A stretch of DNA of 64,000 nucleotides from Alteromonas naphthalenivorans. Lineage in GTDB: Bacteria; Pseudomonadota; Gammaproteobacteria; Enterobacterales; Alteromonadaceae. The translations under genes were made by a program, and so were the position numbers. Shown piece by piece: positions 102 to 35,640 of this stretch. The stretch spans positions 1,550,001 to 1,614,000 of the forward strand of contig NC_015554.1 of assembly GCF_000213655.1 (NCBI RefSeq). The letters run 5' to 3'. The notes under the pieces were generated by a model. That model did no database searches. It was not told the DNA's origin and saw only the letters and a list, made by a program, of their open reading frames with translations. Position 1 is the stretch's first letter, and each line of letters opens with the position of its first letter.

Positions 102-103
102 GC

Positions 104-3260: not shown

Positions 3261-3288
3261 GATAATAAAAGTGATTATCATTTGCAAT
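3261..3288 (+). promoter_or_regulatory. Fur-box-like operator before the siderophore receptor
   Basis: GATAATAAAAGTGATTATCATTTGCAAT contains overlapping GATAAT-like hexamers in both orientations (GATAAT, GATTATCATT), as in Fur boxes. It lies about 20-45 nt upstream of the receptor start. Iron-repressed expression is an inference from this match and from the iron-related genes downstream. Confidence 0.55.
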
Positions 3289-3306
3289 TAATAAAGCGGA
3301 CACACA

Positions 3307-5766: not shown

Positions 5767-5802
5767 TCCTAGGCATTTATAGTAAGACAGGTATTAAACC
5801 GC

Positions 5803-6084
5803 TTGAATAAAAACGTAGCTATTATACTGCGTAGCATAGTCGCCATCATTGGCGGCTATGCGTTATCCGCACTGTTATCCATTTACTTAACCTATTCTTT
5901 CGTGCATTTATTGCATATCAACAAAGGCGTAGCTGTGCTCACTGCTAGCATGATGAGTTATGTCGCTTTTTTTATTCTATTTATTTCTAGTTTCGCGGTA
6001 TCGAACATTGTGAGATGGCTGATTAGCTGTACTCTGATTATCGCGTTAGCCGTGCTATTTTTGCCCTTGGTAGAGGTATTGTGA
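5803..6084 (+). CDS. DUF3649-like small membrane protein
   Basis: The 93-residue protein has about three membrane helices (residues 7-30, 42-62, 66-90). It starts with TTG at 5803; no in-frame ATG precedes the first helix. Its last codons overlap the next gene by 4 nt (GTGA), so translation is coupled. Small DUF3649 proteins are found between a siderophore receptor and a PepSY protein in pseudomonads and alteromonads. The family call rests on size, topology and this order. It probably assists iron release from siderophores in the inner membrane; the exact role is not known. Confidence 0.6.
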   Translation: MNKNVAIILRSIVAIIGGYALSALLSIYLTYSFVHLLHINKGVAVLTASMMSYVAFFILFISSFAVSNIVRWLISCTLIIALAVLFLPLVEVL

Positions 6085-7790
6085 AAACAACATTCAGAAA
6101 AACAATGATTTGGCTTCATACCTACTTAGGCATTATTTCTGGCTGGTTGTTATTCGTTATTTTCGTAACGGGTACGCTAAGTTACTTTACCCCAGAAATT
6201 ACGTATTGGATGATGCCAGAGCGGCAGGTTATTGTAAGTGATGGGTTTGACCGAAATATTGTGGTAGACGAGGCGAGCTATACGCAAACCAAGACGCAAA
6301 CCAATACTCAGACCAAGACAAAGGGGGCGCAAGAGAGTCAGCGATTCCAGATAGAACAATCGTTAAACTACTTACAACATCATGCCAAAAACGCTAGTTC
6401 ATGGCGAATTTACCTACCTACCGCCCGAGAGCAACATTGGTATGTTCAGTGGCGTGAGGGAAAAATACGTCATACGGTGAGTTTTAACAAAGACGCTACG
6501 CTTCTTGGGTCAACAACCGACACCAAAGGGGGATTGTTCTTCAGGAATTTCCACTATACCTTGCAGCTTAGAGGTTACGGCGGCCGCTATATCGCCGGAA
6601 TAGCCGCTATGGCTATGCTGCTTACTCTTTTCAGTGGAATTTATACTCATAGGCGTTTCTTCAAAGACTTTTTTACCTTACGCAAAGGCAAGATATCAAA
6701 ATGGACTTCCGATCTTCATGCATTAGTCGGCATTGTAACGCTACCTTTTTGCTTAATGATTTGTATAAGTGCCATTATGATTTACGCCATTATGTACACG
6801 CCTTTTTCGGCAAATATGCATTTTGAACAAGGCGAGCGGGGCGTAAATAAAGCAATCATCCCATCGCTTCCGCCACTTACTAATAGTACAAGTACGGCAG
6901 CAAACTCGGTAAAAAGCTCGGCAGCAGGCGCCTCTGAATATATGCTAAGCAAATCGATAGCGTACTCAGCCATACTGACTAGCTTAAAAGCACAATGGCA
7001 AGAGCCACACGCGATTAAGCGAATCACGGTAGAAGCGCCGGGTAACGAAAATAGCCGCTTTATTATTGAACGCACTAAAAGCCTAACGGTTTCGAACCGC
7101 GCCGACCGACTTGTTTATTCAAGTTATACTGCAACGCCTCTTGAAGGCTATGAAGATGAAAGTGCACCCGCCACTTTCAGGCGAATAATGTATGGGTTAC
7201 ACCAAGCGAACTTTGCTACCACTGGCTTAAGATGGTTACTCTTTGGCTTAGGTGTATTGAGCTGCGTGCTTATAGCGTCGGGGTTAATTATTTGGGTTAA
7301 TCAGCGGCGTACAAACCTTAGTAAAGGACAAAAGCGTATTCCCTTATCGTTACACATTATGGAAAAGGGCAACATCGCTTCCATTATGGGAATGGCCATT
7401 GCAACGCCCGTTTTTTTGCTTGCTAACCGGCTTATCCCTGCCGACACCTTAAACCGAGCTAACATGGAAATTAGTGCGTTTTTTGTTGCTTGGCTATACT
7501 GCTTGGTACACGTCATTTTTAGGCCTGCAAAAAACGCGTGGTTTGAACAGACATTGGTTGCTGTCGTAAGCTTTATAAGTCTAGCAGTGGTTGGAATATG
7601 TATGCCTTTTGAAAGAATAAAAGGTGCCGTTGGTACCGCAGACATTACTTACTTAAGTTTCTTTCTAGGGTTTGTATTATGCGGCGCTGTTTTTTCAGCA
7701 CTAGCGTATTGGCTAAGAGTTCGTTTGTCCGCCTCCTCTTTAAGTGGCGCAACGTGTAATCAAGATAACCTAGAAACAAAAAAAGAGTAG
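6081..7790 (+). CDS. PepSY-associated membrane protein, FpvG-like siderophore reductase candidate
   Basis: The 569-residue inner-membrane protein has the PepSY-TM layout: an N-terminal helix (WLHTYLGIISGWLLFVIFVTG), a periplasmic domain, further helices around 170-190 and 205-230 (with the conserved SDLHALVGIV histidine), a second periplasmic loop, then several C-terminal helices. Conserved histidines (LHTYLG, FHYTLQL, LHALVG, GLHQANF) suit haem or metal binding. The FpvG group of this family helps reduce ferric siderophore in the periplasm of Pseudomonas. The GTG start overlaps the previous stop, and the DUF3325 gene follows by 6 nt. A lysine/threonine/glutamine-rich stretch near residues 75-90 is low-complexity. 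The assignment to siderophore reduction is by family and context. Confidence 0.75.
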   Translation: MKTTFRKTMIWLHTYLGIISGWLLFVIFVTGTLSYFTPEITYWMMPERQVIVSDGFDRNIVVDEASYTQTKTQTNTQTKTKGAQESQRFQIEQSLNYLQHHAKNASSWRIYLPTAREQHWYVQWREGKIRHTVSFNKDATLLGSTTDTKGGLFFRNFHYTLQLRGYGGRYIAGIAAMAMLLTLFSGIYTHRRFFKDFFTLRKGKISKWTSDLHALVGIVTLPFCLMICISAIMIYAIMYTPFSANMHFEQGERGVNKAIIPSLPPLTNSTSTAANSVKSSAAGASEYMLSKSIAYSAILTSLKAQWQEPHAIKRITVEAPGNENSRFIIERTKSLTVSNRADRLVYSSYTATPLEGYEDESAPATFRRIMYGLHQANFATTGLRWLLFGLGVLSCVLIASGLIIWVNQRRTNLSKGQKRIPLSLHIMEKGNIASIMGMAIATPVFLLANRLIPADTLNRANMEISAFFVAWLYCLVHVIFRPAKNAWFEQTLVAVVSFISLAVVGICMPFERIKGAVGTADITYLSFFLGFVLCGAVFSALAYWLRVRLSASSLSGATCNQDNLETKKE

Positions 7791-7796
7791 TTAGAC

Positions 7797-8087
7797 ATGT
7801 TAACGGTAACTATTTTAGTGGTACTTGGTATTGGTTTACTTGCATTAGCGAGCAACAAACATTTCAAACTAGTAGGGTGGTTGTATGAAAATAAAAAACG
7901 CCATACGCGTAAGGTTGATGGCAAAAAATTTATTCAAAATGGCCTGCGTATAAGTGGTTGGCTATTGGTGGTAGGGTCTTTAATAGTCGCGGTTAATGCT
8001 ACGCCTTCGCTGGCGATATCACTTGTTTGGTGGTTTAGCCTAATAAGTGGTGCTATTTTTTTAGTGGCGTTATCAATTAACAAATAA
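7797..8087 (+). CDS. DUF3325 small membrane protein
   Basis: The 96-residue protein has three predicted membrane helices (about 3-20, 47-66, 70-92) separated by a basic loop (ENKKRHTRKVDGKKF). The ATG lies 6 nt after the PepSY gene. DUF3325 proteins recur with DUF3649 and PepSY-TM genes behind siderophore receptors, which is exactly the order seen here. No catalytic residues are evident. It probably supports the neighbouring PepSY protein in the inner membrane. Confidence 0.65.
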   Translation: MLTVTILVVLGIGLLALASNKHFKLVGWLYENKKRHTRKVDGKKFIQNGLRISGWLLVVGSLIVAVNATPSLAISLVWWFSLISGAIFLVALSINK

Positions 8088-8181
8088 TAGCCAATACTAT
8101 TACTTTTTTTAATTTACTCCGAAAAATTGTTGTCACACTTTTGCTGCAGCGCGTGACTATAAATTAAAGAGGAGTGAAACC

Positions 8182-9186
8182 ATGAAATTTTTAAACTTAA
8201 TTACGCTATTTTCTGCCGCCATATTGTTAATTAATTCAGCGACCCTACACGCAGAAGATACCTCTGCGTTAGCCACTGTACCTGTCACCGTTTACGAACA
8301 AATTGATAGCGCCAAGACGCAAGTCCCCAGCACTCAAACCCCTAGTACTCAAACCATAAGCAGGAATAATGACAGCAGTTCCAACAAGCCTATCAAATAT
8401 GATGAACTAAACGTGTTATTTATACCTGGCTTAATGTCTAACGCTTCAGTTTGGTCAGAGTTATCCCACGAGCTTGGTAGTTACTATAAGGGGCAATATC
8501 GAAGCCACTTTGCCCAAGTGGCGGGTTTTGCGGACAACAAAGTTTATCCAAATAATCGGTTATCAAAAATTACCGCTGCGCTGGTATCGTATATTGAAAA
8601 TAATAACTTAAATAATGTGATAGTCGTTGGACATAGCATGGGAGGTCATATTGCTTACCAGCTTGCACTTGCGCTACCAGAAAGAGTAAGTAAAGTGGTC
8701 TCAGTAGATGGCCTGCCTTTTATTACCCCTATTTTTACTCGTAGTAATAAGGTCACAGCAGCACAGGCAGAACCTTATGCAATGAGCGTTAAATCACAGT
8801 ACGCTAATATGAATCAAGAGCAGTTAAGCGCGTATACACGTCAAGGTATCCACGTTCAAACGACCAGCGAATTGAACCAAGCTAAAGTGCTGTCTATGGC
8901 ATCAAGTTCGCACCCAGAGACAGTGGGGCAAATAATGGCAGACTTGATGACATCCGACTTACGGTCGGCTATAACCTCCAGTAATACTCCTATACTATTT
9001 CTCGGAGCCAGTGGCGGGTTTAGTGATAATGACAGTAAAGAGATGGTTAAACAGTTATACACAGAACAATTTGCCAATGCTAAGCAAGCAAAAGTGGTGA
9101 TGAACACACAATCTCGTCATTTTATTATGTACGATGATTTGCCATGGTTACTGCAACAGACAACACAGTTTATAGGAAAGGAGTAA
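8182..9186 (+). CDS. Secreted alpha/beta hydrolase
   Basis: The 334-residue protein has a signal peptide (about residues 1-24), then a proline/threonine/serine-rich linker containing a repeated PSTQT-type motif (about 48-60), then an alpha/beta-hydrolase domain. The nucleophile elbow GHSMGGH places the serine at 152; LFIPGL near 78 is the oxyanion segment, and SRHFIMYD near the C-terminus supplies the catalytic histidine. The substrate is unknown. A good Shine-Dalgarno, AAAGAGGAG, precedes the ATG. The sigma-factor gene starts 4 nt after the stop, so the two are cotranscribed. Confidence 0.85.
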   Translation: MKFLNLITLFSAAILLINSATLHAEDTSALATVPVTVYEQIDSAKTQVPSTQTPSTQTISRNNDSSSNKPIKYDELNVLFIPGLMSNASVWSELSHELGSYYKGQYRSHFAQVAGFADNKVYPNNRLSKITAALVSYIENNNLNNVIVVGHSMGGHIAYQLALALPERVSKVVSVDGLPFITPIFTRSNKVTAAQAEPYAMSVKSQYANMNQEQLSAYTRQGIHVQTTSELNQAKVLSMASSSHPETVGQIMADLMTSDLRSAITSSNTPILFLGASGGFSDNDSKEMVKQLYTEQFANAKQAKVVMNTQSRHFIMYDDLPWLLQQTTQFIGKE

Positions 9187-9190
9187 GCGC

Positions 9191-10366
9191 ATGGATGTGT
9201 ATTCTTCAGATGTCATTGCCGCGCAAAGTGGAGATATTAAAGCTTTTGAGCGCTTAATTAATGCAAGCAAAAATACGGTAAGTGCAATTGCGCTTGGTAT
9301 TGTAAAAGACATGGATGCTAGCGAAGACGTAGCGCAAAAAGTATTTATTAACTGTTGGCAAAATCTATCTACTTTGACCAACCCCAAAAGCTTTATGCCT
9401 TGGGTACGCCAAATGGCGCGTTATATGGCCATTAATTATCTACGAGACAATAAAGTTTCGAAATCGATAAAAGGTGATGAGGGCGAAAATATACTGGCAA
9501 GTTTCTGTAAAAGTGACGATGCGCTGGAAACTAAGATATCAGACGAGCAAACAAAGAAAATAATCGCAGCCCTTATAGATGAACTGCCATCGGATAGTAG
9601 AGAAGTGGTGTTGTTATATTATCGAGAGCAATGTTCTACAAAACATGTCGCGCAATTACTTGATATTTCTGATGCTGCAGTAAGAAAAAAGCTTTCGCGA
9701 GCACGAGCCATGCTTAAAACCCTAACGCTGGACAAATTCAGTCGCATTATTATTGCCACAACGCCTACGGTCACATTTACTTCAATGACGCTAACCTTAT
9801 TAGCTAACCCTAAATCTGCAACTGCGGCGGTAGCCGTAGGGGCTACGGGAAGTGCTTCTAAAGGCGGTGTATTTAACAGTCTTTGGAGTAAAGTGTTGTG
9901 GGTATTTAGTGGCGCTATGTTAGGTGCGCTTGTTGCCATGGTAGCGGTAATTGCATCACATAAGTTAGCCGAACGTCACATGAAACATGAGCCTGATAAG
10001 AAAAAACTTAAGCGGGTGCGTAATTACACCTTAGTGTGGATTTTTGTTTGGGGTATGCTATTTGCGGCCTCTTATGAATTGTCTACTGGATTTATAATTC
10101 CATTGTTAACCTACTGCGGGTTTGGTGCAGGTATCGCAATTTTAACAAAGCGGGCTCATCAGATTATTTACTCGACTTCGCAGAAACTAAATACGCCATC
10201 TTCCGATATAAAGTATGAACAGCACGGACAGCTCAAAGGGGAAAACATTCAATATGAGCAATCAATGAATGTTTCTAACATGCTAGGTCTTTACGGTGGT
10301 CTTATTCTTGGTTTTATAGGGTTAATCGCAGGGCTGATTAATAGTGGGCGATTGGTAATAGGTTAA
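9191..10366 (+). CDS. ECF sigma factor fused to a C-terminal membrane domain
   Basis: The first about 175 residues form an ECF-type sigma factor: region 2 (AFERLINASKN through MPWVRQMARYMAINYLRD) and region 4 (LPSDSREVVLLYYREQCSTKHVAQLLDIS, then AAVRKKLSRAR). After residue 180 the protein continues for more than 200 residues with about four membrane helices (near 230-250, 275-292, 298-318 and 365-388). A standard ECF sigma factor ends near 180-200 residues. This one would be tethered to the inner membrane and may combine sigma and regulatory roles. There is no separate anti-sigma gene next to it. Its 3' end overlaps the convergent neighbour by 4 bp. Confidence 0.75.
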   Translation: MDVYSSDVIAAQSGDIKAFERLINASKNTVSAIALGIVKDMDASEDVAQKVFINCWQNLSTLTNPKSFMPWVRQMARYMAINYLRDNKVSKSIKGDEGENILASFCKSDDALETKISDEQTKKIIAALIDELPSDSREVVLLYYREQCSTKHVAQLLDISDAAVRKKLSRARAMLKTLTLDKFSRIIIATTPTVTFTSMTLTLLANPKSATAAVAVGATGSASKGGVFNSLWSKVLWVFSGAMLGALVAMVAVIASHKLAERHMKHEPDKKKLKRVRNYTLVWIFVWGMLFAASYELSTGFIIPLLTYCGFGAGIAILTKRAHQIIYSTSQKLNTPSSDIKYEQHGQLKGENIQYEQSMNVSNMLGLYGGLILGFIGLIAGLINSGRLVIG

Positions 10367-11736
10367 TCTGCTTCACGTACTTCCAGCGCTTCAATATTGA
10401 TAATAGTAGAGCGGTTTAGGGTTATCTTAAATCGCTGTACTTGCTGGTGCTTTTGCTTGTCAGTATGCATGAGCACTACATTTATTTGATAGCGTCGCTC
10501 TACAGCCTGCTTAGTAATTTTATTGTTTTCTAGCGAATACAGCCTACCTTCGCCTTTTTTGAGAAAGCGAACAAAAGGGGTGAGGTTAAAATAAATACGC
10601 TGTTGTATATCATCGTAACCTGGCAAGAAGCTTTTCGCATTTACGCGAGTGTCACTACGAAAATGTAACAGCTGAGCGGCTTGTTTGTTTTGCTGCCTAC
10701 GGGTTTGATACAGTCTATCAACCTGCTTAGGTAAATCTCTATTACGAATGTATTCAAGCCAAATAGTTTGGGTGGCTATTCTGCTTTTATTTACGCTGTG
10801 GCTATAAATAATTTTCCACTTCGGTAAACCTTTTTGAATACGCCTCCAAATTACCCGCGTAATGTCTTCTTTAAAGATTTCCCGTAGCCCATAAATAACC
10901 CCCAGAATACCTACGAAGGCCACCGTCACCTCAGTGAAATTAGTACGAGCGTTTAGCACTAAAACCATCACTGCAGCCATGATCACAGCGGTTACCGTAC
11001 CTTTAACCAAGCGGTTTAAATAAGTATTAAGGCTTTTCGTTTTCTTTTGAAATACCACACCGTATTCAATTAAACGCTGTAATAGCCGCATTTTGTTCGT
11101 AATGCGGTTTGGGTCATCTAACGTAATCTGCGAATTGTACTGATTATCTGCGCGGTACTGACTTTCTCGTCTACAAAAATCGAAAAGAAATTTCCGCTCA
11201 CTGGAATAATCGCTACTTTTAGGGGCAGAGGATAATAGCTTTAAAAAAGACTGCTCTACCTGCCAACTCAAATAATTATCGGCATTCTCAAAATACGCCC
11301 GGAGTTTTTCGTCAGAAGGGGTGTAGCGCCTAAGTTTTTTTAACAGAGCTGAGGTTTGCTCTGCTAGCACGATAGCTTGAGGATAAAACGTTTTGCTATC
11401 TTTAATCTTCAGCGTTTGCTTAACGTCTGTGTCGAGTGCGGTACGGATTTGATACGAGTATAAGTTTAAATTTAAGCGGTAATCACTTTGCTCGCCTTTT
11501 TTCTGACTGATAAAGCGGCTTCGAACCAAAGGAACATGCAACTGATCTGAATAATAGGCGCTGTGGTTTTGAATACTGTGGTGAAAATACTGTTCTTCGG
11601 TAAGGGTCTTCGAGCTAATACCCATTTCATCAGGCAGTGAAAAAAACAGGTCGAGACGCTGATGATCACTCGGTAATAGCTGATAATCGACTCTAAAAGA
11701 CAGGTTTTCATCTTGCGTGAGTTTAATTTTGTGCAC
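10363..11736 (-). CDS. Unknown membrane protein, 457 residues
   Basis: I do not recognise this protein. The N-terminal half (1-240) is soluble and charged, the middle has two adjacent membrane helices (about 243-282; LNARTNFTEVTVAFVGILG is the second), and the C-terminal part is basic and soluble. A hairpin of two helices with both large domains on the cytoplasmic side is the likely topology. Its first ATG lies just after an AT-rich region. The stop overlaps the end of the sigma-factor gene on the other strand, so the two genes converge with no room for a terminator. Confidence 0.65.
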   Translation of the reverse strand: MHKIKLTQDENLSFRVDYQLLPSDHQRLDLFFSLPDEMGISSKTLTEEQYFHHSIQNHSAYYSDQLHVPLVRSRFISQKKGEQSDYRLNLNLYSYQIRTALDTDVKQTLKIKDSKTFYPQAIVLAEQTSALLKKLRRYTPSDEKLRAYFENADNYLSWQVEQSFLKLLSSAPKSSDYSSERKFLFDFCRRESQYRADNQYNSQITLDDPNRITNKMRLLQRLIEYGVVFQKKTKSLNTYLNRLVKGTVTAVIMAAVMVLVLNARTNFTEVTVAFVGILGVIYGLREIFKEDITRVIWRRIQKGLPKWKIIYSHSVNKSRIATQTIWLEYIRNRDLPKQVDRLYQTRRQQNKQAAQLLHFRSDTRVNAKSFLPGYDDIQQRIYFNLTPFVRFLKKGEGRLYSLENNKITKQAVERRYQINVVLMHTDKQKHQQVQRFKITLNRSTIINIEALEVREAD

Positions 11737-12003
11737 TTAGGTAATTTTCGCCTTATTCATCACTGTGTTACCGCTTCTTACGAAAGTATGCACTATTTTG
11801 GTTTTGTTACGAAGAATACTACGAATTAAATTGCACTAATATCGCCACTGATAGCACGCTACTACACGTTGAAACCATTCGAACTAAACAATTCTGTCTG
11901 TCCACTTATGAAATACTCTTATGAAATAAGACTAACTTCTTCGGATTTTTCTGGTTGTTTTGTAATCTTCTTATAGGCTGGTACTTAGTGTAAGGAATTG
12001 TTC

Positions 12004-12081
12004 GTGTTCAATCTAATCGGTAATTCTAAAAAGCGAATGTTGTCGAAGGCCATGATAACTACCCCTTTAAATTGTATATAA
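12004..12081 (+). CDS. Possible 25-residue basic peptide
   Basis: A GTG at 12004 opens a frame of 25 codons ending in TAA, reading MFNLIGNSKKRMLSKAM followed by ITTPLNCI. AAGGA at 11992-11996 stands 7 nt before the GTG, which is canonical ribosome-binding spacing. Nothing is recognised. It might be a leader peptide or a chance frame; only the good ribosome site makes it worth listing. Confidence 0.25.
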   Translation: MFNLIGNSKKRMLSKAMITTPLNCI

Positions 12082-12251
12082 ATAAATCTAAATCGAAAGA
12101 ATTAAGCTAATAAAACAGCGTATTGTGCGCATTTTAACCTTTGTGTTTGGGTTCAAACAAAGCGCCTTAGATTTAGCTCAAATCATTTTTAAATAAATTC
12201 AGCCTTTGTCAACGTTGAATTATTAGTGTTAATCCCTTAGTATTTATTTTT

Positions 12252-12269
12252 ATTGAACGATCAATTAAT
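12252..12269. promoter_or_regulatory. BetI-like operator upstream of betBA
   Basis: ATTGAACGATCAATTAAT is an imperfect palindrome close to the BetI operator type (ATTGAACG followed by CAAT and AAT, as between betT and betI in E. coli). It lies about 310 bp before betB. No betI gene is in the window, so the repressor would be encoded elsewhere. Choline-inducible control is an inference. Confidence 0.4.
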
Positions 12270-12576
12270 AAAAAATACACATTTCTCAGATAGAGTTAGA
12301 TTTCTTTTTTAGTCTTCAATACACAATAGAGGGGCTTCTTTAATCTATCTTTCAGTTAGCCGCTGTATAACGGTTGCAAAGCATTTGTAGGCGTTAGTGA
12401 AAACGCTGTTTGTAAACGTTTTAAGCATAAATAACGGATTCAAGACGTTAATTAAGCAGTATGTGTGTTATTTCGAGCGATCAGGCCTGCGTGAAGCGGT
12501 AAGCACGCCTGACGAAGTAAATTTGAACAATATCAGTGGGTTCTAAGCTGCTGATAGTTATCAAAATAGGTTTAAT

Positions 12577-14040
12577 GTGACGACTCCAGTTTATCAAAAT
12601 TTTATTCACGGCAAGTTCATTGCTAATAGCAGTGGTGAGACGTTTGCGGTTAAAAACCCTGCTACCGACGACGTTATTTACCATGTTGAAGTGGCAGACG
12701 AAGCGGTACAACAAGCGGCAATAGCAAGCGCAAAAGAAGGCTTTGCTATTTGGTCTGCTATGACACCGGTTGAGCGCAGCCGTATTCTATTAAAAGCGGT
12801 AGCGTTACTTCGTGAACGAAATGATGAGCTGGCTAAAATTGAAGTGCTAGATACCGGTAAACCTTGGCAAGAAGCCGAGTGTGTAGACGTTGTAACCGGT
12901 GCTGATGTCATTGAGTACTTTGCTGGCCTTGCTCCTACGCAAGTAGGTCAACAGCAGATGGTAGGCGACGACTTCTACTATACACGTAAAGAGCCACTTG
13001 GCATTTGTGCAGGTATTGGTGCCTGGAACTACCCATTACAAATTGCATGTTGGAAGTCTGGCCCAGCCTTAGCGGCAGGTAACGCCTTACTATTTAAACC
13101 TTCAGAAGAAACACCATTAGGTGCTATTAAACTTGCTGAAATTTTCTTTGAAGCGGGCGTACCCGCTGGCGTGTTCAATGTTGTACAAGGTGCAGCAGAA
13201 GTTGGCCAATGGTTAACCCAACACCCAGATATTGAAAAAGTGTCTTTTACTGGCGAAGTCGGTACAGGCAAAAAAGTAGTGGCGAATGCAGCCGGTTCAT
13301 TAAAAGACGTCACCATGGAACTTGGTGGTAAATCGCCATTGTTGGTGTTTGAAGACGCCGACGTATCGCAAGCAGTAAGCGCAGCCATGCTGGGTAACTT
13401 TTATACCCAAGGTGAAGTTTGCACAAACTGTACACGGGTTTACGTGCATAAATCGGTATACCAAGCCTTTATTGACGAACTTAAAACCCGTACAGAACAA
13501 AACATAGTGGCTGGCGACCCGCTCGATCCAAACGTGAATTTAGGCGCACTTATTTCTAAAAATCACCAAGACTTAGTGATGAGCTACATCAATAAAGGTG
13601 TTGAAGAAGGCGCTACCGTGCTAACGGGCGGTACAACGCTTAACCCTGAATCAGCGCCAAACGGCTACTTTGTAGCACCTACTGTATTCACCGATTGCAC
13701 CGACGAAATGACTATTGTTAAAGAAGAAATCTTTGGCCCAGTCATGAGTGTGTTGGTGTTTGAAGACGAAGCCGATGTTATTCAGCGTGCTAACAATACC
13801 CACTTAGGTTTGGCTGCAGGTGTGTTTACCAAAGATATTAAACGGGCACATCGCGTTATCCATAAGCTGCAAGCCGGTATTTGTTGGATAAACAGCTATG
13901 GTAATTCACCGGCTGAAATGCCAGTGGGCGGCTATAAGCAGTCTGGTATTGGCCGCGAAAATGGAATTGAAACGCTAGATCACTACACCCAGACCAAATC
14001 TGTATATGTGGGCATGACCGACATAGAGAGCCCGTTTTAA
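12577..14040 (+). CDS. betB: Betaine aldehyde dehydrogenase
   Basis: The 487-residue protein is a full-length NAD(P)-dependent aldehyde dehydrogenase that oxidises betaine aldehyde to glycine betaine in the cytoplasm. Visible family parts are [19 protein letters not shown], the cofactor motif FTGEVGTGK, the glutamate motif [16 protein letters not shown], and the catalytic-cysteine segment [10 protein letters not shown]. BetB proteins usually have glycine where the second cysteine stands (CTNC). Translation starts with GTG at 12577. The stop overlaps the start of betA (TAATG), so the two are translationally coupled. A BetI-like site lies upstream. The identification relies on this pairing with choline dehydrogenase; related aldehyde dehydrogenases are the alternative. 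Confidence 0.9.
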
Positions 14041-15710
14041 TGAGTAAGCAAGCATATGATTACATCATAGTGGGTGCTGGCTCTGCAGGGTGTGTGTTGG
14101 CTAACCGACTATCAGAAGACGCAAATAATAACGTGCTTTTGCTAGAAACCGGCGGCAGTGATAAAAGCATTTTTATTAAAATGCCCACGGCGTTATCTAT
14201 TCCCATGAATACCGACAAATATGCATGGCAGTTCCACACCGAAGAAGAGCCGTTTCTAGATAACCGCAAAATGCATTGCCCACGAGGTAAGGTATTGGGT
14301 GGTTCCTCATCAATTAACGGTATGGTGTACGTTCGCGGCCATGCAAAAGATTTCGATGAGTGGGAAGAACACGGCGCCCAAGGCTGGAACTACCAAGCTT
14401 GTTTACCTTATTTTCAAAAAGCCGAGTCATTTTATTTAGGTAATGATGACTACCGTGGTGGAAAGGGCCCTTTAGGGGTTAACAATGGCAACGAAATGGC
14501 CAACCCTTTATACACCGCCTTTATAGAAGCGGGAAAGGAAGCGGGCTACGCTACAACGGCTGATTATAACGCCGCCCAGCAGGAAGGCTTTGGTCCAATG
14601 CACATGACCGTGAAAGACGGCGTGCGCAGTTCGGCTAGCCGTGAATACCTAGACCCGGTTAAATCGCGGAAAAACCTAACGCTTGTTACCGGTGCCCTGG
14701 CTGAAAAAGTCATACTTGAAGGTAAAAAAGCGGTGGGTGTGCAGTACAGCGTAAACGGTAAACGTGTTACCGCAAAAGCCAATAAAGAGGTGGTGTTAAG
14801 TGCCGGTTCTATTGGCTCGCCACACCTTTTACAACTTTCTGGCATTGGCGACAGCGAAACGCTTAAAGCAGCAGGCGTTGACGTTAAGCACCATTTGCCA
14901 GGGGTAGGGCAGAACCTACAAGATCACTTGGAGTTTTACTTTCAATATAAGTGCAAACAGCCTATTACGCTTAACGGTAAATTAGGGCTGATTTCAAAAG
15001 GACTAATTGGTGCACGTTGGATGTTTACCCGCAAAGGGTTAGGCGCCACCAACCATTTTGAGTCTTGCGCGTTTATTCGCTCGAAGCCTGGTGTTGAATG
15101 GCCAGATATTCAGTATCACTTCTTACCAGCGGCCATGCGTTACGACGGGCTCAGTGCCTTTGATGGCCATGGTTTTCAGGTGCATGTTGGTCACAACAAG
15201 CCTAAAAGCCGCGGTGCCGTTACTATTAAAACGGCTAATCCTACCGACGCACCCAAAATTCAATTTAACTACTTGCAGCATCAAGACGACATTGAAGGCT
15301 TTCGTGCCTGCGTGCGTTTAACCCGTGAAATCATTGAACAAAGCGCGTTTGACGACTACCGAGAAGATGAAATTCAACCTGGTAAGCATATTCAAACCGA
15401 TGAAGAAATTGACGCCTTCGTGCGCCAAGCGGTTGAAAGCGCTTATCACCCGTCTTGCTCGTGCAAAATGGGTGAAGATGCCATGGCAGTAGTGAATTCC
15501 AATACGCAAGTACATGGTATTGAGAGCCTACGTGTTGTGGATTCTTCAATTTTCCCAACCGTACCTAATGGCAACTTAAACGCGCCTACCATTATGGTGG
15601 CAGAAAAAGCGGCTGATTTAATACTGGGCAAGCCTGCGCTAGCACATTCACCGGTTAACGTTGCTACATCAAATAATTGGGAAACGGTTCAGCGTAATTC
15701 AACGATTTAA
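14040..15710 (+). CDS. betA: Choline dehydrogenase (GMC oxidoreductase)
   Basis: The 556-residue flavoprotein has the GMC fold. The N-terminal FAD motif is [16 protein letters not shown]; the first GMC signature is [18 protein letters not shown], with the second near [20 protein letters not shown]. The catalytic histidine sits in [11 protein letters not shown], and the C-terminus has [19 protein letters not shown]. It oxidises choline to betaine aldehyde at the membrane, feeding BetB. Length and motifs match BetA. The ATG overlaps the betB stop by one base. Other GMC alcohol dehydrogenases are possible in principle, but the order betB-betA makes the choline role likely. Confidence 0.92.
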
Positions 15711-15724
15711 TCTGAGCGGCCTAC

Positions 15725-15752
15725 ACGTACCAAAAAGGCATTTTTGGTACGT
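15725..15752. terminator. Perfect 12-bp hairpin between betA and the carrier gene
   Basis: ACGTACCAAAAA (15725-15736) and TTTTTGGTACGT (15741-15752) are exact complements around a GGCA loop. It lies 15 nt after the betA stop, with no T-tract after the stem on the + strand. It could be a partial terminator or an RNA-stability element that lowers expression of the downstream carrier relative to betBA. Confidence 0.5.
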
Positions 15753-15813
15753 ATGAAAAATATAACAACAGGAAGAAAGATGAAGCATTATCGATTGTTT
15801 TGGGGAGGTAGTA

Positions 15814-17031
15814 ATGACCTTATGGCTTAATGCTGGGATCATTTTCACCCTATTAGCCATTGTGGTTATTCTTGTTAAATGGGGAAATGTGAAGTGTATC
15901 GGTGTCACCCCGGTTAGGCTTTTCACTTTTATCGCCATTCTATTTACCTCGGGCCTAGACGTTGGCCTAATCATGTTTCCGCTTACCGAGTTCGGTGGCT
16001 ATGCAAACATAGCAGCGAACCCTGAATACGCCTTTACTAACCCTATTGCCATTGAGTTTGGCTATTGGGGCTTTCTAATATGGGGCTTTTACTTTCTTAC
16101 CTGTTTTTATTTTTGCGTGGTAGAGCCCAAGGTTAAGTTCTTCGAAATACCACTGGTTAAATTCATTAATAACGTGGTGATTATTGGTACCTGCGCCTTT
16201 ACCGCATTTTTACTACTGTCGAATTTACCCTGGTATTTACCCGCTATCGGCGATGGCGAATCTATCATTCCAATTTTCTATTTCATCGTGTTCGCGGCTA
16301 TCTGCTTTGCGGTTTACTCGAGCACCGACATTAAATATGTACGGCTATTAAGTATCTCTACCACATGGTTGTTTATTGCGTTAATTGGCTTCATGTGGGC
16401 GGGCGCCTTCTTGGGAAGTCACAGCCAAATTGCCGCATTTACACATAATTTAGAACTCATCGGTAGTTACTTTGGAAACATTGAACACTTCGTATTGCCG
16501 CTAAACGAATACCACGAGTTTTACCTATTTTGGTGGTTCGCGTGGAGCATCATGATTGGGCAGTTCACTTCGCGTTTTGTAGGTGGTTTACGCACCTATC
16601 AAGTGCTAGGTGCCATGCTGATATTTCCCTCAATACCTATCGCGGTATGGTTTAGCGTTATTTATCAATATCACGAAGCTGGCATACCCACCACGGGCTT
16701 AAAGAATTTTGCGATGGCCTTCGTAGGGATTGTATTTGTTATTAACTCATTAGATTCGCTAATTCGCCTGTACACAGACAACTTAAATTTAACGGTGAAG
16801 CGCTTTGGCAGATTTAAATATATTGCCATGAATGTCGTCATGCTTTCCTTGCTGACACTGCTTTTTAAATTCGAGTTTTTACAAATTCAGTGGGTAGGGG
16901 CGTTAGTCATCGGCCTGTTTTTCAGCTGTGCGTTTTTCATGCTGTATCGCAAACCTAAAACCGTAAAAAATATCGATAGTTCTCCTGAAGACAACGAAAT
17001 CGATTTTACAAAAATAGATTCAGGGCCTTAA
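15814..17031 (+). CDS. Divergent short BCCT-type carrier
   Basis: The 405-residue protein has about eleven membrane helices. Two segments align with betaine/choline/carnitine carriers: FTSGLDVGLIMFPLTEFGGY matches the glycine-rich TM3 region (FAAGMGIGLMFFGVAEPL in the BCCT protein at 39 kb), and FYLFWWFAWSIMIGQFTSRF (from residue 236) matches the tryptophan-rich TM8 motif. It lacks the long termini of osmotic BetT/BetP proteins and is about 100 residues shorter than a minimal BCCT. A strong Shine-Dalgarno, GGGGAGG, precedes the ATG. Placement after betBA suggests uptake of choline or a related compound, but the substrate cannot be read from the sequence. Confidence 0.7.
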   Translation: MTLWLNAGIIFTLLAIVVILVKWGNVKCIGVTPVRLFTFIAILFTSGLDVGLIMFPLTEFGGYANIAANPEYAFTNPIAIEFGYWGFLIWGFYFLTCFYFCVVEPKVKFFEIPLVKFINNVVIIGTCAFTAFLLLSNLPWYLPAIGDGESIIPIFYFIVFAAICFAVYSSTDIKYVRLLSISTTWLFIALIGFMWAGAFLGSHSQIAAFTHNLELIGSYFGNIEHFVLPLNEYHEFYLFWWFAWSIMIGQFTSRFVGGLRTYQVLGAMLIFPSIPIAVWFSVIYQYHEAGIPTTGLKNFAMAFVGIVFVINSLDSLIRLYTDNLNLTVKRFGRFKYIAMNVVMLSLLTLLFKFEFLQIQWVGALVIGLFFSCAFFMLYRKPKTVKNIDSSPEDNEIDFTKIDSGP

Positions 17032-29315: not shown

Positions 29316-29336
29316 AAGCCCCTAAAATAGGGGCTT
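29316..29336 (-). terminator. ssrA: Probable native ssrA terminator, now separated from ssrA
   Basis: AAGCCCCTA (29316-29324) pairs exactly with TAGGGGCTT (29328-29336); on the minus strand the stem is followed by TTTTTGC. It lies 6 nt beyond the left 31-bp repeat, on the side where ssrA sequence would have continued before insertion. It was probably the tmRNA terminator and now ends leftward transcription out of the element. Confidence 0.75.
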
Positions 29337-29341
29337 AATAC

Positions 29342-29372
29342 GAATTGGTGGAGCTGGCGGGATTTGAACCCG
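29342..29372. repeat. Left attachment repeat (ssrA 3'-end duplicate)
   Basis: The 31 bp match 35279-35309 exactly and include the tmRNA T-arm and acceptor sequence (TGGTGGAGCTGGCGGGATTT and what follows). Beyond it to the right the sequence diverges from tmRNA (TAACTATT instead of CGTCCAGA), marking the element's left junction. Confidence 0.9.
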
Positions 29373-29401: not shown

Positions 29402-29863
29402 CTAACTCTCGTCACTGCTAATGTCACCAGAATATTGAGCCGGTACACTACTAAACTTAGTTGACCTTAACAATTGTCCCGCCTGTTCAATGTGAAATTG
29501 CTTACATGCCGCCATAACTAGATATCTGACATAGTCGGTTTCAACTAAGGATTGAACAGTATTCTCTACATCCTTTGAAACAGAAGTTATATCAACAGTG
29601 AATGAAGAAACTGCCTCGAGAGTTAAGGAGAACGCAATCTCTGAGTCTTCTAAATCATGACCAACAAATCCAGTTAATTCGGATTTAGACTCAAAATGTA
29701 ATTCGATCACATTATTTTCCGAGTCTTCAGTAGTATCGATTTCTTCAAAATTAATTGCTAAAGAACTTTTAACTAAGCCTTTTTTGTTAGAGACATCTAA
29801 TCTTTTATCATCGAATGATGAATGTAAGAGCTTTGATCTCAGTAAATCTAATTGAATGTTCAT
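29402..29863 (-). CDS. Third gene of the hic operon, possible SecB-like chaperone
   Basis: The 153-residue acidic protein has an N-terminal short helix (IQLDLLRSKLLHSSFD), three or four predicted beta strands (GLVKSSLAINFEEI, NVIELHFESKSEL, EIAFSLTLEAVSSFTVDI), and C-terminal helices (VQSLVETDYVRYLVMAACK, then QAGQLLRSTKFSSVP). This order resembles the SecB fold seen in toxin-antitoxin-chaperone systems such as Rv1957. It starts 3 nt after the hicB stop, so it belongs to the same operon. The SecB assignment is my inference from topology and position; no diagnostic motif is certain. An accessory immunity or regulatory protein is the alternative. Confidence 0.45.
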   Translation of the reverse strand: MNIQLDLLRSKLLHSSFDDKRLDVSNKKGLVKSSLAINFEEIDTTEDSENNVIELHFESKSELTGFVGHDLEDSEIAFSLTLEAVSSFTVDITSVSKDVENTVQSLVETDYVRYLVMAACKQFHIEQAGQLLRSTKFSSVPAQYSGDISSDES

Positions 29864-29866
29864 TAG

Positions 29867-30343
29867 TTAATGGCAGTCCTTTGAATCATAATCAACATTC
29901 TTGGCTGAGATTGATTTATTAGCATAACTAAAGGTAGCTTCTTCTCCAAATACTACGTCTTGAGTAGTAGAAGTCCTTGTGATGTGCGTAACATTCAAAT
30001 TGATCACATCTCTAGTTATCAATTTTTCCTCGCAGGCTTTTTTGATAAAGTCATTAATTTTAATGCCCATCCTTTCGGATTGATAAGCAACCTGCCTGTG
30101 CAAGTCATTACCAAGCCGAACATTGAGTGAACCTTTAAATGTTTTATCTGGTTCAGCTCCTAATTCTTCACAAATTATCAAATAATCATCAACAGCACTT
30201 TTAAACTCTGCTTCTAGTTCCAATACTGTATCACCTGAAAAGGTAACTAGATCGTTAATATATAATATTTTCCCATAAAGATTTTTCTTATGAAGACACG
30301 TTTCTATTGAGCCTATGTACCCTTTATAATCTAAAACGTTCAT
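29867..30343 (-). CDS. hicB: HicB-family antitoxin
   Basis: The 158-residue protein opens with the HicB partial RNase-H-like domain (YKGYIGSIET through LYGKILYINDLVTFSGDTV and FKSAVDDYLIICEELG), then a ribbon-helix-helix segment (KGSLNVRLGNDLHRQVAYQS, then MGIKINDFIKKACEEKL). This is the HicB type with a C-terminal RHH domain that binds its own operator. About 40 extra residues follow the RHH domain, longer than usual and possibly where the third gene product binds, as chaperone-addiction segments do. It lies 9 nt after hicA. Confidence 0.85.
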   Translation of the reverse strand: MNVLDYKGYIGSIETCLHKKNLYGKILYINDLVTFSGDTVLELEAEFKSAVDDYLIICEELGAEPDKTFKGSLNVRLGNDLHRQVAYQSERMGIKINDFIKKACEEKLITRDVINLNVTHITRTSTTQDVVFGEEATFSYANKSISAKNVDYDSKDCH

Positions 30344-30352: not shown

Positions 30353-30613
30353 CTACAAATATCCATATTCTTTCAACTTCTGTACAACATCATTAAGTGC
30401 ACTTTGACAAACGGGATCACTGCCGTGCGGCTTATGAAGGATAATTTTATTCATTGATTCATCGAAGAAAATAATCCTACTCCCGCTGGTTTTCCCTCTA
30501 TTGTGTAATGTAAAACCGAGATTTTGTAAAAAGCTACTGAGTTTAGAAAATCTGCAGTCGCTCGGTACCGGTATTCTTTGTATGTAAATCTTGAATTTGT
30601 CTTGACTTCCCAC
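30353..30613 (-). CDS. hicA: HicA-family toxin
   Basis: The 86-residue protein has the HicA double-stranded-RNA-binding-like fold: a first helix (FSKLSSFLQNLGF), the basic strand pair with GSRIIFFDESMNKIILHKPH, and the C-terminal helix ALNDVVQKLKEYGYL. The family histidine appears in HKPHG. HicA toxins are mRNA interferases that halt growth when the antitoxin is lost. Translation starts with GTG at 30613, preceded closely by ACGGAA. It heads a hicA-hicB-third gene operon. The toxin would help retain the element. Confidence 0.78.
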   Translation of the reverse strand: MGSQDKFKIYIQRIPVPSDCRFSKLSSFLQNLGFTLHNRGKTSGSRIIFFDESMNKIILHKPHGSDPVCQSALNDVVQKLKEYGYL

Positions 30614-30719: not shown

Positions 30720-31784
30720 CTAAGACTCGTTTATCCATCTTCCATAAACTTTTCGAATCATTCCCCAATCAGCATGACCCATTTGCTTTGCAACCCACAT
30801 AGGATTTTTGCCAGATGATAGCATCATTGATGCATAAGTATGCCTACATTGGTAAGGGTAACGATAAGGAATATTTAGCTTTTTAAGAGCAGGTTTCCAA
30901 GTGTATTTACGTAACCCGTCAGCATATTTGTACTCTTTCATAGTCTTTGGGTCAATAAATACTCTTTTCGAATTAAAGAACTTTGATGATTCTATTGATG
31001 TAAGAGCCTGTAATGCCAAGCAGTGCAATTCTATAGTTCGAATGCTTCCAGCAGTTTTAGGTACTTTCTCTTTTCCAGAAGTAATATTAACCCGTATGTG
31101 TGCCAAACGTTTTTCTATATCAACGTCTTCCCAACGAAGTCCAAGTAATTCACCAGTCCGCAAGCCTGTATAAAATGCAAATTGAAAAAACTCTTTATAG
31201 GGGGACTGTAACGCATTAAGTATTTTTTTGATCTCAGACTTATTGAAGGGCTTTGGTTCATTAATTTTTTGTTTGTACCTTTCAATGCGTTCGACTGGAT
31301 TTGAGTCGATTACACCATCAAAGTATGCACGCTTGAAGATCTGACTAAGCACATTGCGAGTTTCATTAATTGATTTACCAGAGAGTAAGCATTCAGATGC
31401 CCATTCATCAAACATACTAGCTTTAAACTCATTTAAAATCAGGTGTCCCCAATTAGGCTTAATGTATGAATTGTATTTTTGTGTATAGCCCCGAATAGTT
31501 GTATGTGACCAGTTTCGCTGCTTTTGTTTAAACCAAATGTTTGAATAATCGTGAATAGTGTAAGTACAGCCATTATCAAAAGCTTTTTGCATTATCTTGC
31601 TGTTGGGAAAGCGACTCGCAATTGCTTTGTCGTTTAGTGAAATCGCCATCTTGTAAATAGCTTCTTGTTCCTCAATTCTTTTTGCAGCGGTTTTATTATG
31701 TGGGGCGGGTATCGTTTCTCTGAATCTTTCATGGTTAAGAGTGAAGTCTATTACATATCCGCCGTTTACAGCTTTAACACTCAT
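30720..31784 (-). CDS. int: Tyrosine recombinase (integrase)
   Basis: The 354-residue integrase has an N-terminal arm-binding segment, a SAM-like core-binding domain (about 75-170) and a catalytic domain. Catalytic residues are R209 (YTGLRTGELLGLRW), R314 (PYQCRHTYAS, with Y in place of the usual first H), H337 (QMGHAD) and the nucleophile Y347 (KVYGRW). The set is complete, so it should be active. It would recombine the 31-bp core in ssrA. It lies 4 nt after the excisionase-like gene and is divergent from the unknown membrane protein. Phage P4/P22-like integrases of this kind often use tmRNA or tRNA ends. Confidence 0.93.
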   Translation of the reverse strand: MSVKAVNGGYVIDFTLNHERFRETIPAPHNKTAAKRIEEQEAIYKMAISLNDKAIASRFPNSKIMQKAFDNGCTYTIHDYSNIWFKQKQRNWSHTTIRGYTQKYNSYIKPNWGHLILNEFKASMFDEWASECLLSGKSINETRNVLSQIFKRAYFDGVIDSNPVERIERYKQKINEPKPFNKSEIKKILNALQSPYKEFFQFAFYTGLRTGELLGLRWEDVDIEKRLAHIRVNITSGKEKVPKTAGSIRTIELHCLALQALTSIESSKFFNSKRVFIDPKTMKEYKYADGLRKYTWKPALKKLNIPYRYPYQCRHTYASMMLSSGKNPMWVAKQMGHADWGMIRKVYGRWINES

Positions 31785-31788: not shown

Positions 31789-31965
31789 TTATTCTCCTTT
31801 CATCCATTGGTAAATCATTTCAACGATAAAAATCAATCTGCCATCAGGCGCTTTTAGATAATGCCGCTGTTTTATCCAAACACCTTTTTTCACCTTCATT
31901 CGAATTGCTTCTTTTGAATATCCTGTCATTTCAGAAAGTTTGTCTGTTGTTACTAATCCGCTCAT
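31789..31965 (-). CDS. Excisionase-like small DNA-binding protein
   Basis: The 58-residue basic protein starts MSGLVTTDKLSEMTGYSKEA and continues with a helix, KVKKGVWIKQRHYLKAPDG, and a final strand-helix (LIFIVEMIYQWMKGE). This is the winged-helix excisionase layout. It lies directly upstream of the integrase (4-nt gap), whose start is preceded by its GGAGAATAAC end. It would direct excision and may repress the divergent promoter. A short AlpA-type regulator is the alternative. Confidence 0.75.
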   Translation of the reverse strand: MSGLVTTDKLSEMTGYSKEAIRMKVKKGVWIKQRHYLKAPDGRLIFIVEMIYQWMKGE

Positions 31966-33477: not shown

Positions 33478-34884
33478 TTATTTACACAAGTCCAAGATGC
33501 CTTCGGCTTTTGGGGCTTTCCCCTCACGGGAAATCCCCAGTCGCCTTTGGCTACCCCCTGAGCCTTCGTCGACAGCCCGTCCTTCCCGTTGGGAGGGCGG
33601 GCTGTCAACTCGTTCAGCGGGTGACGAAAAGAGCTGCCAGCTTTTATCTGGTATAGCGTATGTGCCTTCAGTGAAACGGATGTGTTTTGGCTTTTGGTTG
33701 TAAGCGTGTTTCGAAAGGGTGCTTAATTCACAATGTTGATACTGTGTTTTAATTTGATTTTCATACTCGAGGGAGAAAGGGCGTTCTATACGCTTCACGT
33801 TTGCGCCACCCATCATAATTAAGTAAGAAAGCCAATCAGATTCATCTGCCGCTTTTTGAAGCTTTCCTAACGGTGTGTCACTACTTTCTAATTCTAACTT
33901 TCTTAACTGTCGCCATAACGTAACCGAAGGCAGCCCTAGAAATTGAAACTGCCTTATATTGTATAGTGATGCCCAAGCAGTGATTTTTGATGCAGACTGT
34001 TTCGCATCGTTGCCGTAGTTGTCGGTATCTAGAAATTCACCATCAATATTTTTACAAATGTATTTAGCGATATAGTCTTGCGCTGAACCCTTTTCAGGAT
34101 CTATTGGCTCTGCTTTGAATCTATTTTTGTCCGCGCCGGATTCGTCGGCATCATCTTCCATTGCATAGTGCCTTAAAATACTTGTTACACGTGCCAACTG
34201 TTCTGGCGGTGTGAATAGCAATAAATGCCAATGTGGTGTGCCGTCATGGTGTGGCTCAACAACACGCAAGCCGAACACTTCTATTCCTTCGCGATGGAAT
34301 TGTGCTCTAGCTTTGCGCCATTGGGCATTAAGATACTCATTAGCATCTTTAACAGAATAATTTAAATATTTAGGGTTCGGCTTACCCGATTGGTAGTGTG
34401 AATGGAACTTGGATGGTGTGGTGATGGTATAAAAGCACCCCACATGGTTTAGCAGTTTAGAATACTCTTCTGTTCCCTTTATTCGAACCATCAATTCGGC
34501 TCTTCTTACTTCAGGATTAGATACGTTTGCCTGATAAGCATCCAGCATAGAAATAAACTCACCATCAGCACTGCAGAACCATTTAGATTTCATAAACTCA
34601 AGGGCTTGCTCTTTTTCCCACTTAAATTGGCGCAATCGGTCACTACTGCAATAAGCACTTTTATTCTGATTCACTAAATCTAACTGTCGACGTATTTCTT
34701 CTACTTTTTGGCTGGCAATTCGTTTGAGCTTGTTGAACCAAAATTTCTCTGAACGCGCTTGAATAATGCCCTCAGTAGCTGAAATGTCGTCAGGAAGACT
34801 GATGTTGTATTTAAGTAGTTTGGCTTTGCTAAGACAGAGTGCGTGGGCTTCACTTAAATCGGCGGTATCGCGCAAGCATTCCAT
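33478..34884 (-). CDS. P2 gpA-type HUH replication endonuclease (body of gene)
   Basis: From its first ATG this frame encodes 468 residues of a rolling-circle replication initiator of the P2 gene A/phiX174 A superfamily. The metal-binding HUH motif is PHHDGTPHWHLLLF (histidines 218 and 220), and the two-tyrosine nicking motif is YIAKY (271-275). The N-terminal half has paired cysteines and long helices typical of the family. P2 gpA is about 760 residues; here the same frame continues upstream for 141 codons without any ATG, GTG or TTG. The protein therefore looks N-terminally split by the attachment site. The C-terminal tail is low-complexity and is encoded by two GC-rich hairpins. Confidence 0.88.
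   Translation of the reverse strand: MECLRDTADLSEAHALCLSKAKLLKYNISLPDDISATEGIIQARSEKFWFNKLKRIASQKVEEIRRQLDLVNQNKSAYCSSDRLRQFKWEKEQALEFMKSKWFCSADGEFISMLDAYQANVSNPEVRRAELMVRIKGTEEYSKLLNHVGCFYTITTPSKFHSHYQSGKPNPKYLNYSVKDANEYLNAQWRKARAQFHREGIEVFGLRVVEPHHDGTPHWHLLLFTPPEQLARVTSILRHYAMEDDADESGADKNRFKAEPIDPEKGSAQDYIAKYICKNIDGEFLDTDNYGNDAKQSASKITAWASLYNIRQFQFLGLPSVTLWRQLRKLELESSDTPLGKLQKAADESDWLSYLIMMGGANVKRIERPFSLEYENQIKTQYQHCELSTLSKHAYNQKPKHIRFTEGTYAIPDKSWQLFSSPAERVDSPPSQREGRAVDEGSGGSQRRLGISREGKAPKAEGILDLCK
33512..33606. repeat. Two strong GC-rich hairpins in the 3' end of the replication gene
   Basis: The first stem is GGGGCTTTCCC (33512-33522) with GGGAAATCCCC (33528-33538), one mismatch. The second is GACAGCCCG with inner CCTTCCC (33571-33587), matching GGGAGGGCGGGCTGTC (33591-33606) almost perfectly. 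They lie inside the coding end of an HUH initiator. In related phages the nicking origin lies within the initiator gene, so these may be the origin region. Confidence 0.6.
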
Positions 34885-35248
34885 AGCTTTCGATTTAGCA
34901 AAGGCTTTGAGTTCTTTGATGTCAGAAGTTAGGTTTAGATCTGCTAAGTGAAGGTGTTTATTTAGGCTGGAAAGGAAGCGGTTGGCTTGTACATAGTCAT
35001 GTTGTTTAGACAGTTTGAGGTACTTATGCGCAGCGTCATAAGCAAGAGGGGATATAAAATCGAATATCTTTTTGCGAAAAAGGTGACATTCGCGAGTACC
35101 AATACCATTTGTTAATTCATTAGGGCAGGTGACAGTCTCGCGACAGTCGAGTATAGATTCACGACACTTTTGAGCCCTATTTAGACCCTGAGAGACCGAT
35201 TGAGTAGGAAGTGATGATTCGCTGTAAGCAGCGTTATTAGAGGGATAG

Positions 35249-35274
35249 AGCGGTCTAGATTGGTCTAGACCGCT
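35249..35274. terminator. Perfect 11-bp inverted repeat beside the right attachment site
   Basis: AGCGGTCTAGA (35249-35259) and TCTAGACCGCT (35264-35274) are exact complements around TTGG. It begins 8 nt downstream of the tmRNA 3' end, inside the element and within the replication frame. It may replace the displaced ssrA terminator or be a recombination-protein site; there is no good T-tract. Confidence 0.5.
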
Positions 35275-35278
35275 TCTG

Positions 35279-35309
35279 GAATTGGTGGAGCTGGCGGGAT
35301 TTGAACCCG
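35279..35309. repeat. Right attachment repeat (within the intact ssrA 3' end)
   Basis: The 31 bp equal 29342-29372. They hold the tmRNA acceptor and T-arm, so insertion reconstituted a complete ssrA on this side. The repeat is in frame with the replication gene. Confidence 0.9.
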
Positions 35310-35640
35310 CGTCCAGAAAATGTCTACCTTTGGTACTACATGCTTAGTTTGTCTTTTCTTTAACTACTTTAGACCCCGACAAACAGGGTTCTTGGTAGCT
35401 GTCCCGATACTATTTCGCGGTTCAACCTCAGGAGAGTTTCCCTCGCTAGTTTGCTTGGATGACCTTCCGAATCCACGCTAGCAAACAAAGCTGTGGTGGA
35501 AGGGCCTATACCGGTTATTAAGCGGCTAGTGCGTAGTTTTCGTCGTTTGCGACTATTTATATGCGGCTTTTTTAAGAGGCCAGCCGCACCTCTGCATGCA
35601 CCTCCGGCTTCCAAGATCCTGTCGAATCCTAATCAGCCCC
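35283..35640 (-). ncRNA. ssrA: Transfer-messenger RNA (tmRNA)
   Basis: The 358-nt RNA rescues stalled ribosomes together with SmpB. Its 5' end reads GGGGCUGAUUAGGAUUCGAC and its 3' end closes with the T-arm GGTTCAAATCCCGCC and AGCTCCACCA, so CCA is encoded. The tag frame at 35550-35521 reads ANDENYALAA followed by TAA (35520-35518), as in many gammaproteobacteria. The 3' end is the integration target of the neighbouring element and is intact. smpB lies 1.5 kb away on the same strand. Confidence 0.97.

Follow-up and report, generated by a model that had tools for sequence, protein, structure and literature searches.

Integrated rolling-circle elements must avoid initiating replication within the chromosome. 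The described solutions act on transcription, through a repressor in ICEBs1 and a terminator in Tn916, as far as the available text of one report goes (PMC11658703). In Tn916, which has a terminator insulator and antitermination, transcription of the rolling-circle genes is blocked when the element is integrated behind a host promoter, and these genes are expressed after excision (available text of PMC11658703). Other elements carry their attachment site within one of their own genes. In mycobacteriophage BPs, attP lies inside the repressor gene and immunity depends on integration, which changes the repressor C-terminus so that the shorter, integrated form is active (available text of PMC4557955). 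In the ‘suicidal’ integrases of the SSV type, described in the available text for archaea only, attP lies in the integrase gene itself, which integration splits and excision rejoins (PMC8371274). SGI1 is an integrative island with its own rep, whose helper-dependent replication was seen for the excised circle (PMC7826253); a 6.1-kb PICMI island carries an integrase, AlpA and a replication gene, PICMIs lying beside fis and having a primase (PMC10803314); and islands moved by a jumbo phage integrate just downstream of tmRNA, with the integrase gene near their 5′ end (PMC12595487). The accessible portions of these last three reports mention no start codon supplied at a junction.

Here we analyse a 64,000-nucleotide stretch of Alteromonas naphthalenivorans (NC_015554.1, positions 1,550,001–1,614,000; hereafter the window), which on its sequence carries a 5.9-kb integrative element seated at ssrA. 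Like BPs, it has attP within an element gene, and integration would, in our proposal, alter both a protein and the state of the element; here, however, an initiator would lose its start and the circle would hold the complete gene. Its gene is parted and rejoined as in the SSV type, but the integrase is intact, the detached part of the replication gene, rep, is limited to its start and initial codons, and the host belongs to the Proteobacteria. Like Tn916, it would keep a rolling-circle gene downstream of a host promoter silent until excision, although what would be missing is the start of translation. It shares an own rep with SGI1, an integrase and replication gene with PICMIs, and the tmRNA site with the jumbo-phage-moved islands. 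A gene split by its own att site is thus of a known kind, while excision that supplies the start of a replication initiator appears to be new; we found no report of one in the open-licence literature, represented mostly by titles and the openings of abstracts and including few subscription journals or bioRxiv preprints.

An integrative element at ssrA

The element is bounded by an exact 31-bp repeat that occurs at two sites only in the whole window, at 29342–29372 (the far att copy) and 35279–35309. The second copy overlaps codons of rep and the 3′ end of ssrA (35283–35640, minus strand), the tmRNA gene that is the integration target and that lies directly upstream of rep on the same strand. 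The integrated part of rep (33478–35309, minus strand) matches GPA-family HUH endonucleases (PF05840, 2.2e-87; phrog_91, 1.8e-148) and has no NCBIfam match; the preliminary description of this DNA had named it an HUH endonuclease. In a 12-row alignment H359, H361, Y412 and Y416 are invariant; we take the first two to be the H-x-H metal motif and the others the two catalytic tyrosines, and both the profile and the motif residues place the protein among GPA/HUH replication endonucleases. The best matches of a PDB fold search include HUH proteins, and no match reached E ≤ 1e-3.

Also on the minus strand are genes for a tyrosine integrase (30720–31784; PF00589, 1.5e-18; phrog_1, 6.4e-63), a small excisionase-like protein (31789–31965; phrog_539, 5.6e-7, no Pfam match), a HicA-like protein (30353–30613; PF07927, 1.7e-6) and a HicB-like protein (29867–30343; PF05534, 9.4e-13), and a 153-amino-acid ORF (29402–29863) that matches nothing in Pfam, PHROG, PADLOC or NCBIfam. 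Also within the repeats is a SEC-C protein, the sole PADLOC match and one restricted to its SEC-C motif; ORFs without a family match number two in all. Phage structural genes are absent among the eight element ORFs searched with Pfam and PHROG profiles. A P2-like prophage was rejected for an element of 5.9 kb with eight searched ORFs and no capsid or tail match, as was a PICMI satellite (fis-adjacent, with int, alpA and primase) for one at ssrA with a GPA endonuclease instead.

A replication gene divided by its attachment site

The first ATG of the integrated rep ORF (34882–34884, minus strand; residue 142 of the frame) would give a protein of 468 amino acids. Above it the frame runs for 141 codons, as far as 35307, none of which is a stop or an ATG, GTG or TTG; 12 more codons, likewise lacking these triplets, lead to a TAA inside ssrA. 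At the 4.1% frequency of start-like codons over the other 468 rep codons, the chance of finding none in 141 is about 0.003. Non-standard candidates in the frame are a CTG at 35316 and further ATA, ATT and CTG codons. At the far end, the rep frame reads TAA (29400–29398) GCA ATT GAA ATC ATG (29385–29383, minus strand) AAA ATA GTT, and the next base, 29373, is the first base of the junction codon. Read through the att core, the far-end ATG shares the frame of rep, and this frame is unchanged whatever the crossover point within the repeat. Reading the two ends as separate pieces, 609 residues plus MKIVT make 614. The preliminary description had proposed just this: an open frame of 141 codons passing through the att repeat into ssrA, a join at the 31-bp repeat that keeps the frame and brings in an ATG after an in-frame TAA, and a joined gene of 614 residues. 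The sequence agrees with it base for base. The att core sits within the rep coding frame in the window and in relatives, and in joined form in one contig described below, so integration parts the gene.

A true start at 34884, which the same description had named as one counter-case, is not supported by the homologues and was rejected, because homology and fold both reach higher, the fold by about 80 residues. PHROG homology starts at residue 94, and the conserved columns and the predicted fold start at about residues 60–70. In the predicted structure of the whole frame (mean pLDDT 83.8), residues 1–58 are disordered and the fold extends over residues ~62–563; residue 142 lies within it, and a start there would drop four helices and cut a fifth.

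Far-end starts in relatives

A rep match was found in 19 of 59 genomes of the genus, and in seven, the window's included, it extends from residue 1 inside the ssrA repeat. All seven of these loci have a tmRNA gene (ARAGORN), and the frame is open from its 3′ end. Both att copies are present in six, the seventh (L027) reaching a contig end, and each of the six elements has an in-frame far-end start (five ATG, one GTG) 2–9 codons before the att core. In 6/7 genus members the first ATG, GTG or TTG of the integrated frame comes at residue 85 or beyond.

For a wider sample, 80 genome-contig loci were taken from at least 579 confirmed relatives; the far att was sought in 41, of which 13 were also scanned with a tRNA-end pattern, and both copies were placed in 24. 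Adding the window, L024 and L026 brings the set to 27 distinct elements, with att positions entered by hand (L022, L023 and L025, the same elements as L029, L028 and L030, were counted once). Loci in which no att pair was located were left out (L027, L032–L034, L036, L041, L043, L051, L054, L056–L058, L060, L061, L064 and others); L051 and L056 among them have a far-end start of the same kind beside a near side without a recognised tRNA end. The 27 include elements from Alteromonas, Aliiglaciecola, Marinobacterium, Nitrosomonas, Pseudocolwellia, Thiothrix and Rheinheimera, and they are related to each other, 10 of the 27 being Nitrosomonas-type. ARAGORN placed a tmRNA at the near att in 19/27 and a tRNA-Ser in one (L047), and no tRNA or tmRNA there in seven (L038, L039, L040, L044, L045, L046 and L050), several of which lie at contig starts. 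A class-wide sample searched with P0092 gave matches in 17 of 369 genomes.

At the far end, the rep frame contains an ATG or GTG before any stop in all 27 elements (ATG in 25), against 3/27 and 0/27 for the other two frames, and the nearest start lies 1–12 codons from the att core. On the tRNA side, the same frame holds an ATG or GTG in three elements (L045, L047 and L055), and six if TTG is counted. The tRNA end is read in one frame by 25 of the 27, while L062 and L045 use the two others; in L062, which has a 28-bp repeat, the far-end ATG shifts with the different frame. The ATG of L045 also follows its frame, in an element with a far copy of 16 matched bases and an ATG on the tRNA side as well; the far copies of L038, L039, L045, L052 and L093 have 12–16 exactly matched bases.

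After the rule had been fixed, 12 further regions were fetched. Four repeated earlier loci (L279, L280, L286 and L289) and eight were new, three of them without an att pair (L282, L287 and L288). The five with a pair, of which L284 and L285 come from one genus and are much alike, all have an in-frame far-end ATG or GTG, and their tRNA sides lack all three of ATG, GTG and TTG. In total, an in-frame far-end start was present in 32/32 elements with both att copies placed.

Codons downstream of the tRNA end

In 35 elements, the 56 codons past the tRNA end are free of stops in the rep frame in every case, whereas the other two frames have stops in 33/35 and 35/35 (shuffles: mean 32.5, minimum 27). 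ATG and GTG together account for 8 of 1960 codons in the rep frame; the other frames have 73 and 41, and shuffles average 43 (0/1000 as low as 8). The 22 non-Nitrosomonas elements alone gave 8 versus 43 and 28, again with none of 1000 shuffles as low. TTG is not depleted, at 41 against a shuffle mean of 21.5 (maximum 38), and this excess comes mainly from the Nitrosomonas-type reps, all 13 of which have TTGs at residues 47 and 55 that are a possible alternative start. Overall, in 25/35 elements the stretch from the tRNA end to residue 62 contains an ATG, a GTG or, mostly, a TTG, and seven have an ATG or GTG there (for example L031, ATG at 39, and L036, ATG at 27). These internal codons argue against a strict lock in every relative. 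The earlier claim that the start comes only by excision is therefore strict for the window and the nine other elements that lack such codons before residue 62, and not for the other 25.

Selection on the gene is uneven. Codons 65–480 are under purifying selection (pN/pS 0.14–0.28), and codons 481–600 have a pN/pS of 0.33–0.49. Codons 9–64 combine ratios of 0.80 and 0.66 in two groups with low synonymous divergence, so that constraint appears to act on the DNA and selection on the protein looks weak, as an overlap between the gene and attP arm sites would predict. Taken with the stop-free codons and the predicted disorder of residues 1–58, this makes the N-terminal tail look like a translated linker laid over attP. 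In the translated frame, a conserved GTxxC-like motif lies at nine different distances from att, ranging over 62–76 codons, in 27 of the 35 elements, the motif pattern missing the other eight. A motif similar to the far-end TGACACAAA-like motif seems by eye to be present at about codons 47–58 of the early Nitrosomonas-type rep; the TGACACAAA-like motif in Nitrosomonas-type far ends (L037–L056) is a possible arm-type integrase or Rep site.

The weak protein-level constraint on codons 9–64 and the disorder of residues 1–58 would also suit a Rep that begins inside the element in both states, at a TTG or another codon around residues 37–70, with the open frame being a chance stop-free attP arm. 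The start-like codons before residue 62 in 25/35 elements, the TTGs kept at residues 47 and 55 in 13/13 Nitrosomonas-type reps, and a homologue (P0002, 98% identical over the aligned part) whose listed start corresponds to residue 65 point the same way. Such a start would nevertheless find no ATG, GTG or TTG before residue 62 in the window and nine other elements, and in 6/7 genus members the first candidate comes only at residue 85 or later. Nor does it account for the matching frame of 32/32 far-end starts, the frame switch of L062 or the absence of stops in 35/35 elements, and we regard it as unlikely.

Start signals, terminator and stem-loop

The far-end ATG of the window has weak anti-Shine-Dalgarno pairing (−0.5 kcal/mol; 62% of shuffles were as good), and other Alteromonas-type far ends did no better than shuffles, so Shine-Dalgarno strength was rejected as general support for the Alteromonas-type far ends. 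Nitrosomonas-type far ends have the start 27 nt before the att core in 12/12, with AGAGG or AAGGAG upstream in eight; the start in the window sits nearer the core than this. The TAG of the 153-amino-acid ORF ends 16 nt above the far-end ATG, and in the circle the two could possibly be translationally coupled.

A terminator-like hairpin with a T run (29316–29336, minus strand) lies just beyond the far att, one of four such sites in the region, which are no more than in shuffles (mean 5.4). It is probably the terminator of ssrA itself, displaced by integration, and a hairpin with a T run was seen by eye in the same place in 8 of 14 relatives inspected. With rep directly downstream of ssrA and the hairpin beyond the far att, transcription of ssrA may enter the integrated rep.

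A perfect 11-bp stem-loop, AGCGGTCTAGA-CCAA-TCTAGACCGCT (35249–35274, minus strand; MFE −19.2, z −6.8 against mononucleotide shuffles), lies inside the rep coding sequence, 8 nt beyond the 3′ end of the tmRNA. It recurs in Alteromonas-type elements, with exact stems of 10–13 bp in 7/8; L031 has an exact arm of only 4 bp, yet low folding energy. Different stems occupy that place in L055, L057, L064, L069, L083, L093 and L042, though not in all elements. The stem-loop may serve as an origin hairpin, as an insulator or as a site for the integrase.

Joined forms and protein N-termini

One contig, L042, carries rep in joined form. It is a 6501-bp metagenome-bin contig with 141 identical bases at both ends, giving a 6360-bp unit; ARAGORN finds no tRNA gene in it, and the att core occurs in one exact copy. 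Across the junction the sequence is GTG ATT GAT TTA ACA AGC AAT ACT GAA|GGT TCG ATC, in frame into rep, and the contig could represent either a free circle or a tandem array that has been collapsed. At 4046–5837 (minus strand) it also has an ATPase-like gene and a neighbour that by eye look like an accessory or defence pair.

Free circles were sought among viral contigs as well; a broad scan left 80 loci, and a match from residue 1 was seen in L108 alone, which by length and end overlap is L044 again. A DNA pattern for the far-end module had six matches in viral contigs, none with a P0001-like rep in the stretch fetched; a P0018 query of viral contigs gave five loci, none matching the N-terminus; and an N-terminal protein search with P0018 returned only itself. 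Two further contigs have related features. L044 (Marinobacterium iners, 1–16630) has a 113-bp end overlap and by eye filamentous-phage-like genes, and it also holds a related element flanked by att copies, at 8794 and 14192, where no tRNA gene was found. L190, a 5677-bp viral contig without a P0001-like rep, reads TAA GTG ATT GAT ... before a tRNA-end-like core (188–225, minus strand).

Among the 120 homologous proteins listed, 33 show the tRNA-end pattern near the N-terminus. By eye, five of them look junction-derived (P0008, P0018, P0024, P0031 and P0041, whose longest contigs are 4648, 7260, 6508, 5882 and 11041 bp, respectively). The other 28 look as though they begin inside a tRNA or tmRNA; P0022, P0023, P0032, P0043, P0092 and others begin in a reading of the T-arm (LDAG, MLTDSG, MTDAG), and these starts may be misplaced.

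Taken at face value, those 28 of 33 N-termini would suggest that the integrated Rep begins inside ssrA or the tRNA, at a CTG, TTG or GTG of the T-arm reached by read-through, so that integration swaps the start instead of removing it. The hairpin beyond the far att makes read-through plausible, and 6/27 tRNA sides do offer an in-frame ATG, GTG or TTG, so the claim of a start supplied only by excision is not strict for these either. The other 21, the window among them, and all five later elements have none of the three codons on the tRNA side. Moreover, maturation of tmRNA at the CCA end would sever a message begun within ssrA. We consider this reading improbable, still more so than a start inside the element. 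That the far-end start belongs to another short gene and matches the rep frame by coincidence can practically be dismissed: the stretch from start to att core is short (1–12 codons), but the frame matches in 32/32 elements, with 3/27 and 0/27 for the other frames.

Discussion

We think it highly probable that excision joins a start codon to rep, making translation of the replication initiator subject to recombination; this best explains the geometry, the frame, their conservation and the one contig with overlapping ends and a joined frame. From these we infer that translation would begin from the junction. The attachment site lies inside the 5′ end of the element's own rep. While integrated, the element has the far-end start codon, three more codons and one base of the next at one of its ends and the remaining 609 codons at the other, downstream of ssrA. 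Integration would remove the normal start of full-length Rep, so that no complete Rep would be made even given read-through from ssrA; transcripts could reach rep, and the lack of a start codon would be the barrier. Excision, or arrival as a circle, would join both parts and restore the start in a circle carrying the complete 614-codon rep. The likely purpose would be to keep the chromosome out of reach of a rolling-circle initiator for as long as the element stays integrated.

With less confidence, though we lean towards it, we propose that a family of small elements in Gammaproteobacteria and Nitrosomonas uses site-specific recombination as a translational on-switch. With rep placed after an ssrA or tRNA gene, only the ribosome-binding site and start would be withheld until excision gave them back, the host terminator moved away, and ATG and GTG excluded from the stretch left behind, as a lock against chromosomal rolling-circle replication.

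If this is true, the lock is built into the DNA rearrangement and needs no regulator, and complete Rep from the normal start is impossible until the element is free. Gene callers would then misplace the starts of many such replication genes. Element boundaries and circular forms could be found by a sequence signature, namely a start at the far att together with an N-terminus reading a tRNA end.
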